Virus record (IMG/VR): IMGVR_UViG_3300043409_001877
Span: 1-64,000 of that record
Length of the DNA stretch: 64,000 bases
DNA from: a virus
Strand: one strand, 5' to 3'
The notes beneath the pieces are model-generated. The model was given only the letters and a program-made list of their open reading frames with translations, made no database searches and was not told where the DNA came from. Shown one piece after another: positions 1 through 3,796 of the stretch. The stretch's first letter is position 1, and each line of letters begins with the position of its first letter. The translations under genes and the position numbers were made by a program.

Positions 1-30
1 AAAAAAAAGGCTGAAATTATCAGCCTTCTA
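1..30 (-). terminator. Rho-independent terminator after the Ro60-like gene and its RNA
   Basis: On the minus strand a 7-bp stem (AGGCTGA/TCAGCCT, plus positions 8-14 and 20-26) with a 5-nt loop is followed by a run of eight T. This is a classic intrinsic terminator for leftward transcription. It closes the Ro60-like gene and the structured segment just downstream of it. Confidence 0.9.
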
Positions 31-36
31 ATTAGA

Positions 37-200
37 TAGAGTATTATCGGAATTGTTTGAATGTTAAAGTCATTCGTCCTGGCTGGGTAAAATCATCCTC
101 GCCACAGATGAAGTTTGCTTCGTTAACTTTTTCAAGTTACTAGGCTTTTCGGATAGTTGTATGTTTTTTTAACTTTGCTGCAATTATTCCCAATACTCTA
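37..200 (-). ncRNA. Candidate structured RNA (possible Y RNA) downstream of the Ro60-like gene
   Basis: The minus-strand segment between the Ro60-like stop codon and the terminator folds as a closed unit by eye. Its 5' end TAGAGTATT (200-192) pairs perfectly with AATACTCTA (45-37). After a 1x3 internal loop GGAAT pairs with ATTCC, then TTG with CAA. Inside are a hairpin AACTT-GAAA-AAGTT (GNRA-type loop, 138-125), a hairpin GAAG-CAAA-CTTC (121-110) and a GGC/GCC-based stem (about 103-81). End-to-end pairing interrupted by internal loops is the architecture of Y RNAs, which bind Ro60 proteins and are often encoded beside them in bacteria. No separate promoter was recognised, so it may be processed from the upstream mRNA. 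I did not find the conserved tRNA-like module of bacterial YrlA. Part of it also reads as a start-less, coding-like stretch, so a decayed gene cannot be excluded. Confidence 0.5.
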
Positions 201-205
201 ATATT

Positions 206-1600
206 TTAAGCAGTAATAAGCTCGTAACGTGTGCTATTAACTGTTTTATTCATGATACCAATTGGTGACATATCTTCACCTGTCAACAATGATTTTAAGA
301 TTGCTGGTGAGAAACCACTAACCAACGCTGTACCATTATCACCAACTTGAACTGGGAAGTTTCCAGCACTTCTGCTTTGGATATTCCAGAACACTAATTT
401 TGGCATTGCGTAACCAGCTGTTTCGTATTTTTCACTAATCATATCCAACGCACTTCCTCTGTGATTAGTAGCTTGATTAAACTCCATGTCTGACATAATC
501 AAAACTGTTGTTGGCATTTCCGATTCTGGTAAGTTGAATCCAATTGCCTGATTAAGAATCAAAGTAAACACAGCTTCAAGGTTAGTACTCATACCCCAAT
601 CAGAATGTTGTAATTGACGATAACGGTCTTTTAAATTACCGTTAAGGTATTGCAATACTGGTGATTCAGAGAATGTTATAAACGCATCCTTAAATTTACC
701 TTCGTTTCTTTCTGAAATATACAACCCTAAAGAAATACATACATCCAAACAAGTAACAGTTTTACCTGCTGGTGAACTCATAGAACCAGAAACGTCACAC
801 ACTGGTAACACTCTTTCATTGCTACCTTCCATGTAGTTAGGTAACGCATCCCATTGCTTTACAGCCATTGTTTGATCTCCCTTTTGTAAGGTTTTCAATA
901 CATCGTATGGGTATACAGCTGAAGCGTTAACTTTAGTATCGCCATTTTTGTATGCATCAAAACGAGTTGAGTCATGTTTACCAAACGCTTTACCATAACG
1001 AGCCATAGCAACAGATGGTACATGTTCATAAGTAATACCATTCCATTCTTTAGCACACATAGCTGTTTCAACAACATTAGTTTTTTCAACTAACATTTTA
1101 CGATACTCTTTTGGAGATAATTTCATGTAACGTTCTAAAGCAATAGCTTCTTTACCTTTACGAGGCATCCACTTAGCACATAAACCGTTATTCTCATTAA
1201 GAGCACTTACGATTAAGTTTTTAGCTTGCGTATCTAATTTAGTACCAAATAAAACTAATAAATCATCCCAACGACCATATTCGGAAACGTATGATAAATT
1301 TTTAGCTAACGACTCAGTATGATTTTCAACCAAATATAACATTAAATCTCTAAAGATCTGACGCTCACCAGCACCACCACGAACATCACGAGCCCAGAAC
1401 ATAGTTCTAAGAGCTACTAACGGATTTTCGTTAAATGCTTTTGAGAAGTTAACTACTAATCTTTTTTTGTCTTGCCCACGCATAGCTCCAATTGTGAAAA
1501 ATAAATCCACACAAGCATTAAGTGATGAACTATTGGTAACCATACCGTTTTCAGTTTGGTTATCTCTTGTTCTAAGTGCGTCTACTAATGAATTTGCCAT
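206..1600 (-). CDS. Ro60-like RNA-binding protein (DUF2828/TROVE-type ring plus vWA domain)
   Basis: This 464-residue protein has the DUF2828 architecture, which resembles TROVE/Ro60: an alpha-helical N-terminal region (about 30-250) and a C-terminal von Willebrand A domain. Family-type motifs include FWARDVRGGAGER (68-80), KWMPRKG (143-149) and a VPSVAMARYGKAF block (194-206). The vWA MIDAS is intact: DVSGSMSS (269-276), a later MSTN threonine and an MSDME aspartate, so metal binding is likely preserved. Ro60 proteins bind misfolded RNAs and Y RNAs and work with exonucleases in RNA quality control. That role is inferred here, not shown. A Bacteroidota-type promoter lies 22 bases upstream, and a structured RNA and terminator follow directly. 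Assignment to the vWA/DUF2828 family is firm; true Ro60 function is plausible. Confidence 0.85.
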   Translation of the reverse strand: MANSLVDALRTRDNQTENGMVTNSSSLNACVDLFFTIGAMRGQDKKRLVVNFSKAFNENPLVALRTMFWARDVRGGAGERQIFRDLMLYLVENHTESLAKNLSYVSEYGRWDDLLVLFGTKLDTQAKNLIVSALNENNGLCAKWMPRKGKEAIALERYMKLSPKEYRKMLVEKTNVVETAMCAKEWNGITYEHVPSVAMARYGKAFGKHDSTRFDAYKNGDTKVNASAVYPYDVLKTLQKGDQTMAVKQWDALPNYMEGSNERVLPVCDVSGSMSSPAGKTVTCLDVCISLGLYISERNEGKFKDAFITFSESPVLQYLNGNLKDRYRQLQHSDWGMSTNLEAVFTLILNQAIGFNLPESEMPTTVLIMSDMEFNQATNHRGSALDMISEKYETAGYAMPKLVFWNIQSRSAGNFPVQVGDNGTALVSGFSPAILKSLLTGEDMSPIGIMNKTVNSTRYELITA

Positions 1601-1622
1601 TGTTTTATTTTTAATTACTTTA

Positions 1623-1653
1623 CAAAGATAAGCATAAATTCTTAAAAAACAAA
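1623..1653 (-). promoter_or_regulatory. Bacteroidota-type promoter of the Ro60-like gene
   Basis: Minus strand: TTTG (1653-1650), a 19-base spacer, then TATCTTTG (1630-1623), an exact match to TTTG-N19-TAnnTTTG, the primary-sigma promoter of Bacteroidota. It ends 22 bases before the ATG at 1600. This suggests host RNA polymerase can transcribe the gene without phage factors. Confidence 0.7.
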
Positions 1654-2951: not shown

Positions 2952-3581
2952 ATGTATAAAATCATATTATATAATAACGGTAAGAGAGTTAAGACCATTA
3001 GGTCATACCAACTCTATACAAACGCTATTAAAAAATATAGGGGTTTACTTAAGGATAATAAAACTTATTTCCCTAAAGAATATCTATGGAATGGTATTAA
3101 AACCGATTATGAGTTAGTTTTAACAGCACCACCAAAAAATAAAGCTATGGAGTTTTTTAGAAATGAAATTGGGGCTGTTGTTAAGATTAAAACTAAAGGT
3201 GATTTTGTTATAAAACAAATAACCAAATACACTATTGAGGATCGGTTTAAAAATAGAATCGATGGTAAAATGTATGATTTTAAATTATTAATAAAAAAAC
3301 TATTAAGTAATCAAAATTTAACATATACTATAATGGCTATTAATAATAAATTAGTCATTGAGTGTTTTGAGAATGATGATGTTGATGTGTTTGTGTTAAA
3401 GAATTGTGATATAGCTTACTCATTATCTGAAGCTATAAGGGTTTTTAATAACACAAATGGATTGACGAATTTCATATACTTCCAGGAACCAACATTAGAT
3501 ACTAAGATGAGGGTTTATGATGATCTAGAACTTAAATACGGTATTAGTAAAGATTACATGCAAAAGGTAACGACCCGTTAA
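2952..3581 (+). CDS. Hypothetical protein, plus-strand
   Basis: A 209-residue lysine-rich protein that I do not recognise. It has no membrane segment or cofactor motif and looks mixed alpha/beta. It follows a terminator by 24 bases, so it probably has its own promoter in the AT-rich stretch before 2952; none was clear. Its stop overlaps by four bases the stop of the convergent minus-strand gene at 3578. A TLDTKMRVYDDLELKYGIS stretch near the end is its most distinctive segment. Confidence 0.75.
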   Translation: MYKIILYNNGKRVKTIRSYQLYTNAIKKYRGLLKDNKTYFPKEYLWNGIKTDYELVLTAPPKNKAMEFFRNEIGAVVKIKTKGDFVIKQITKYTIEDRFKNRIDGKMYDFKLLIKKLLSNQNLTYTIMAINNKLVIECFENDDVDVFVLKNCDIAYSLSEAIRVFNNTNGLTNFIYFQEPTLDTKMRVYDDLELKYGISKDYMQKVTTR

Positions 3582-3796
3582 CTCATTTTAAGTACAAATT
3601 TAACGTTATAAATAATCACATCAAATTTATCTTTTGATTTATACCCCTGTAAAGTGTTGTTTTGTATTTTAAACACTTCTTGTTGTAAATTTTCGTGCTT
3701 TGATTCATTTAAATAAATGGTAATATCCGTTGTTATTTTATCACCAATTGTTTGAGTAATAATCTTAGCTAATTTATATAATTCACCAAGTTTCAT
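3578..3796 (-). CDS. Hypothetical small protein
   Basis: A 72-residue protein with no recognised domain. It is the last gene of a tightly packed leftward operon running from about 5.7 kb. Its ATG overlaps the stop of the 71-residue gene upstream (ATGA-type overlap), which suggests translational coupling. It converges on the plus-strand gene with a four-base overlap. Confidence 0.65.
   Translation of the reverse strand: MKLGELYKLAKIITQTIGDKITTDITIYLNESKHENLQQEVFKIQNNTLQGYKSKDKFDVIIYNVKFVLKMS

Follow-up and report, generated by a model that had tools for sequence, protein, structure and literature searches.

Does a DUF2828 family gene in a viral genome, together with the structured RNA encoded directly downstream of it, specify a Ro60-Y RNA particle? 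The question arises at one end of the IMG/VR viral record IMGVR_UViG_3300043409_001877 (141,494 bases), of which positions 1 to 64,000, here called the window, were analysed; window base 1 is the end of the record. An open reading frame at 206-1600 on the minus strand encodes a DUF2828/DUF7788 protein of 464 amino acids, and an end-paired RNA of approximately 164 nucleotides (nt), located at 37-200 on the same strand, lies immediately beyond its stop codon. An earlier note on this DNA had proposed that the two form a phage Ro60-Y RNA locus. This proposal is supported by the predicted fold of the protein, by covariation in the RNA stem and by a class of gene-linked RNAs found in relatives. We consider it probable (roughly 0.82) that the locus encodes a Ro60-Y RNA particle of a second type that is common among phages and in which a dedicated Y-like RNA serves RNA handling during infection.

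The protein comprises an N-terminal helical-repeat domain and a vWA domain. It matches the Pfam profiles DUF2828 (E 7e-36) and DUF7788 (E 4.6e-51), and PHROG 850, 'RNA-binding protein', is a further family match. The vWA metal ion-dependent adhesion site (MIDAS) is intact, as the earlier note had stated, and its five residues, D269, S271 and S273 (DxSxS), T339 and D371, are invariant across 38 relatives. When an AlphaFold2 model made from these 38 aligned relatives (predicted local distance difference test score 83, predicted TM-score 0.84) was compared with the PDB using Foldseek, the top ten matches were all TROVE/Ro60 structures. The best had an E-value of 1.2e-9, the alignments covered approximately 500-560 columns, and the query-normalised TM-score was 0.54-0.63 for nine of the ten. 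PDB matches ranking below this set had E-values >1e-3 and included several vWA-domain proteins. DUF7788 and DUF2828 were the only Pfam profiles matched at E <= 0.001, and the TROVE profile (PF05731) was not among them. As the top ten PDB matches are nevertheless TROVE/Ro60 structures only, we conclude that the modelled protein is of Ro60 architecture, in a sequence family separate from TROVE.

The 205 nt that lie between the stop codon and the contig end have a predicted minimum free energy of -46.5 kcal/mol, compared with -31.1 +/- 3.6 kcal/mol for 200 shuffled sequences (z -4.25), none of which folds as stably. The RNA was said to adjoin the gene (15 bases or fewer) and to pair its ends in a long interrupted stem; pairing begins 5 nt past the stop codon and involves a lower stem, P1, and a core stem, P2 (all on the minus strand, as are the features below). 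P1 pairs 191-200 with 37-46 (200-191/46-37), the 3' strand being placed by the covariation alignment. P2 pairs GGAAU (186-190), which is invariant in five close relatives, with AUUCC (49-53; 190-186/53-49), placed by both the fold and the alignment. When the window was aligned with L002, L003, L004 and L005 (five sequences, 15 stem pairs), 97% of the cells were able to pair and 8 of the 15 pairs had changed on both sides, all eight within P1. The covariation score was 0.573, against 0.247 in shuffles, and 0 of 500 shuffles reached 0.573; sliding the partner strand by 1 to 3 columns reduced it to <=0.12. Covariation of the stem across homologous loci, the absence of which the earlier note had listed among the refuting outcomes, is thus present. 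The 5' strand of P2 is followed directly by an 11 nt core motif, AAUUGCAGCAA (175-185), and its 3' strand by GA (47-48). The variable insert contains a hairpin at 92-112 that covaries in three sequences, and the fold includes a further internal hairpin of 5 bp with a 7 nt loop at 59-75.

DUF2828 genes were found in 682 of 50,697 GenBank phage records, including those of such well-studied phages as KVP40, Felix O1-like phages and P100. A recurring unit, first read in the flanks of relatives, consists of AAGN4-5-UUACAGCAA, a variable loop, the complementary strand and UG. It was sought no farther than 800 bases from the gene and on the same strand in 297 loci (224 viral and 73 chromosomal), which are not all independent as related contigs are included; single units were counted after removal of exact duplicates. 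A unit is present beside the gene and on its strand in 162 of the 224 viral and 50 of the 73 chromosomal loci, and on the opposite strand in one locus of each kind.

Early scans combined motif, stem and 3' tail in one search, and for that reason a blind test replaces them as evidence. The hexamer CAGCAA alone was the query, and sites closing a Watson-Crick stem of at least 7 bp were counted and compared with shuffles. No more than 800 nt from the gene and on its strand, 212 of 484 CAGCAA sites close such a stem (4.8 expected). The corresponding figures are 0 of 83 on the opposite strand (1.8 expected) and 13 of 231 far from the gene (2.4 expected). A covariance model built from viral units only found 41 units in 80 chromosomal loci (E <= 0.05), every one on the gene's strand. 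Among the sources are a Woesearchaeota bin (L253), Chloroflexi and Clostridia, and some of the contigs concerned may belong to prophages or to misbinned phages. Units were selected without regard to the base that follows the 3' strand, and it is G in 268 of 276 of them; the consensus over the 276 is CUUACAGCAA, within which CAGCAA itself was the selection criterion. Compensatory changes in the core stem of the short units (A7) are partly selected for, because units were picked for having a stem. The blind test, the covariation in the window RNA, the viral-unit model applied to chromosomes and the base after the stem are free or nearly free of this selection. On this sequence evidence we conclude that the gene is accompanied by such an RNA in many phages, in bacteria and in one archaeal genome bin, and that it is linked to a discrete class of RNA.

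Short and long forms of the unit can be distinguished. The insert is short in 234 of the 318 non-redundant units and reaches 70 nt or more in the other 84; many of the short units in relatives are near 57-66 nt in total. P2 of the window RNA corresponds in position to the core stem that covaries in the short units, and with its core residues and stems retained the window RNA is, by sequence, a long and divergent member of the family. Among the long units, 50 of 84 carry a mimic of the tRNA T-arm, defined as a 5 bp stem closing the T-loop UUCRANN, where 0.20 would be expected from shuffled inserts. Matches to the Rfam YrlA model, all below the gathering score, were found in three phages, GAP32 (E 7e-7), JoeDirt (E 1.6e-5) and L341 (E 6.5e-4), and in GAP32 and L341 the match coincides with the unit and its insert. 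The Y RNA likeness proposed for the window RNA thus gains from its membership of a class that includes YrlA-like tRNA mimics.

The location of the units relative to the gene varies. They are downstream of it in the window group, Staphylococcus phage CF9 and mycobacteriophage JoeDirt, upstream in Campylobacter CP81, Listeria P100plus, Vibrio MS02 and Clostridia, and between tRNA genes in KVP40, GAP32, DLP_6 and Aeh1. Units that are not beside a DUF2828 gene were found inside tRNA arrays. One such array, in Clostridiales bacterium CCNA10 (L339, 1054500-1060500), holds 20 tRNA genes, a transfer-messenger RNA (tmRNA) and five units 40 kb from the DUF2828 gene, and may be prophage-borne. T4 and T5 have tRNA arrays, but neither a DUF2828 gene nor a unit was found in these two phages; both are present in KVP40 and Aeh1, which are relatives of T4. 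Among the phages searched, rtcB adjoins the DUF2828 gene in the 735 kb phage LR756501 and is approximately 1.3 kb from it in Listeria P100plus. An RNA ligase gene is just upstream in GAP32, and RNA ligases are common in the DUF2828-bearing phages searched, but as T4 also has one, their presence says little.

Several points count against the proposed particle, in addition to the missing TROVE profile match. A scan of the window at the Rfam gathering threshold returned no match, and hence no Y RNA or YrlA (RF02553) and no RF01414; the core of the window RNA is a new one, distinct from the Y/YrlA stem of the Rfam models. No T-arm or tRNA-like module was seen in the window insert. The short-unit covariance model aligned to the window RNA only at E 1.5 and with the wrong 3' strand, and had no significant match elsewhere in the window or its genome, so that membership of the family rests on position, the close relatives L002-L005 and the core residues. 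No tRNA, RtcB or Rnl2-type ligase was found in the window genome, which is possibly incomplete. Approximately 30% of loci have no unit nearby. In a co-occurrence survey of 74 genomes of one bacterial family, in which just 71 candidates per genome were scored out of several hundred or more, a unit match was found in 1 of 10 DUF2828 genomes and some weak matches were found in genomes without DUF2828. A pattern search for window-like cores returned only the three known relatives and L317, which lies in a coding region, looks like a chance match and was rejected.

Could the units have another explanation? The stem of the window RNA ends at a putative terminator and begins, like that of its nearest relatives, a few nt past the stop codon, an arrangement suited to a cis element of the mRNA, such as a 3' untranslated region stability or terminator structure, rather than to a separate partner RNA. 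This we regard as very improbable, as the same core precedes the gene in other phages and in bacteria, and it also occurs in tandem copies and far off inside tRNA arrays. The units might instead be carried along with tRNA arrays as tRNA decoys or elements of tRNA processing, their link to DUF2828 being indirect because the gene is often near tRNA genes. Their position between tRNA genes and the T-arm mimicry of many long units agree with such a role, but the T4 and T5 arrays have no units, units adjoin the gene in chromosomal loci, and in the Staphylococcus phage a unit is directly beside the gene with the nearest annotated tRNA >2 kb away. An explanation confined to tRNA arrays is accordingly improbable.

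Y RNAs are thought to gate Ro60, and the units could likewise be regulatory RNAs that set the level of the protein or close its ring and have no wider task in RNA handling. The tight genomic linkage and the presence of several copies per locus are in keeping with this, though the tRNA mimicry and the proximity of RtcB in some phages point to a wider role, and we judge a purely regulatory function unlikely.

Under the favoured reading, a Ro60-Y RNA particle used in RNA handling, the DUF2828 protein would be a Ro60-fold ring with a vWA domain, and the downstream RNA its dedicated Y-like RNA. For binding, processing and function we infer the following. The protein would bind the conserved core, namely the short stem with its 5'-UUACAGCAA-like strand and the UG or GA after the 3' strand. 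The variable insert would act as an effector module or gate; in many relatives it is a T-arm/D-arm mimic, as in YrlA, that could serve as gate, tether or decoy. The window RNA would be co-transcribed with the protein mRNA and then cut out or trimmed from its 3' end, while the units in tRNA arrays of other phages would be processed together with the tRNAs. During infection the particle would most likely deal with structured or damaged RNAs, chiefly tRNAs, and sort them, protect them, or route them to repair or decay. The attached RNA family gives the DUF2828 gene a candidate mechanism and a direct test. If the proposal is correct, Ro60-Y RNA particles with tRNA mimics are widespread among phages and plausibly act against tRNA-cleaving host defences.

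Other features of the window fared variously. The strong terminator of the earlier note is visible in the fold as a hairpin with U8 (1-29), but it was not listed by a terminator scanner, and because window base 1 is the contig end its T run is cut there; it is best called putative. The host-type promoter has no statistical support. The Bacteroidota-type match TTTG-N19-TATCTTTG (1623-1653, minus strand), which ends 22 nt upstream of the start codon, does no more than fit the consensus, and the window contains 4 such matches against a chance expectation of 5.1. Nearby genes include those for a baseplate wedge subunit, ribonucleotide reductase, DnaB helicase and an SbcC-like subunit, which indicate a large tailed phage, probably a myovirus.

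Further observations were made in other genomes. The tRNA array of Stenotrophomonas phage DLP_6 (L323 3275-3523, 339-560) includes a bacterial RNase P RNA match that falls short of the gathering score (E 3.6e-14, 54.7 bits), together with a permuted tmRNA match that exceeds its own (E 7e-27). The viral contig L340 has a tmRNA-like match at 3295-3654 on the minus strand (44.4 bits, gathering score 47). The T4 species 1 and 2 RNAs (rnaC and rnaD; L344 1409-1672) and the T5 stable RNAs (L343), long-known phage RNAs sited in tRNA arrays, were considered as members of the family and rejected, as they contain no motif-and-stem unit. In the Campylobacter phages CP81, PC5, CP39 and CJLB-7, two places per record match the DUF2828 protein. 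A unit-like match (E 4e-4) is present at G100:C3:68517-68588 (L338), in a genome that gave no DUF2828 match in the search of its family.

The units resemble one group of eukaryotic RNAs. Dictyostelid Class I RNAs were described in 2004, and we know of no settled molecular function for them so far. When 16 named phage genomes were searched with the Class I model (RF01414), which was built from amoebal sequences, 12 matches were obtained at E <= 0.005, seven of which are within 600 bases of a DUF2828 gene and on the same strand. The binomial chance of this is approximately 1e-15 with matches treated as independent, but tandem units are not independent, so the figure should be read as 'very unlikely' rather than as exact. 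No unit passes the gathering score of 41.5 bits, the best phage unit reaching 37.1 bits. Like Class I RNAs, the short units are approximately 60 nt long, with a covarying 6-7 bp stem joining the ends and a variable loop, and they start with AAG and end with CUG(U) (for Class I, see PMC7919456). Both have an 11 nt motif right after the 5' strand, in the form CCUUACAGCAA identical in several loci. Residues U3, C6, C9, A10 and A11 of this motif, near-invariant in Class I RNAs (PMC7919456), are all present in the window RNA and its relatives. The window form differs in having GA 3' of the stem, a longer lower stem, and a length of approximately 164 nt in place of 42-65 nt. The reported Class I partner, Rnp1A, is an RNA recognition motif protein, and no tRNA-mimic form is described among Class I RNAs. 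Class I RNAs have been reported only from dictyostelids, and a search of a range of other organisms found none (PMC7919456). The shared core and the Ro60-like protein suggest a partner and a job for both the units and the Class I RNAs. We see about even odds that they are one family, the Y RNAs of DUF2828-type Ro60 proteins, spread among bacteria, phages and amoebae; convergence on a short motif is possible. If they are one family, Class I RNAs would be Y RNAs with a Ro60-like partner, would not be confined to dictyostelids, and would have gained their first relatives and a candidate protein partner.

Among the closest known systems are the bacterial Ro60 (Rsr) proteins with their Y RNAs. A literature search found no paper linking DUF2828 with an RNA; that negative does not extend to the list in Chen et al. 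2014, a study of bacterial Y RNAs that reportedly covers phages too. The likenesses to the bacterial systems, which include rsr-yrlBA-rtcBA operons, are a ring and vWA fold (predicted here), a small end-paired RNA encoded near the gene, as in the window, the occurrence of forms with and without a tRNA-like module, and, in some phages, RtcB adjacent or close to the gene. The differences are the DUF2828/DUF7788 profile in place of TROVE, the UUACAGCAA...UG stem core in place of the Rfam YrlA stem, and the frequent location of units in tRNA arrays. Of two canonical TROVE controls, L336 has YrlA and no unit, and L337 has neither. The 'Ro-like RNA binding protein' genes of mycobacteriophages, such as JoeDirt gp52, belong to the same protein family. 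In JoeDirt, units and a YrlA-like module are downstream of the gene, whereas the annotation names the protein only, no RNA partner being annotated in the stretch examined. Two alternatives have been proposed for the bacterial operon: possible inhibition of an anticodon nuclease by the tRNA-like domain of YrlA, or a part for Rsr and Y RNA in the decay of tRNAs (PMC7790460). By analogy, both ideas would fit a phage that faces a tRNA-cleaving defence.
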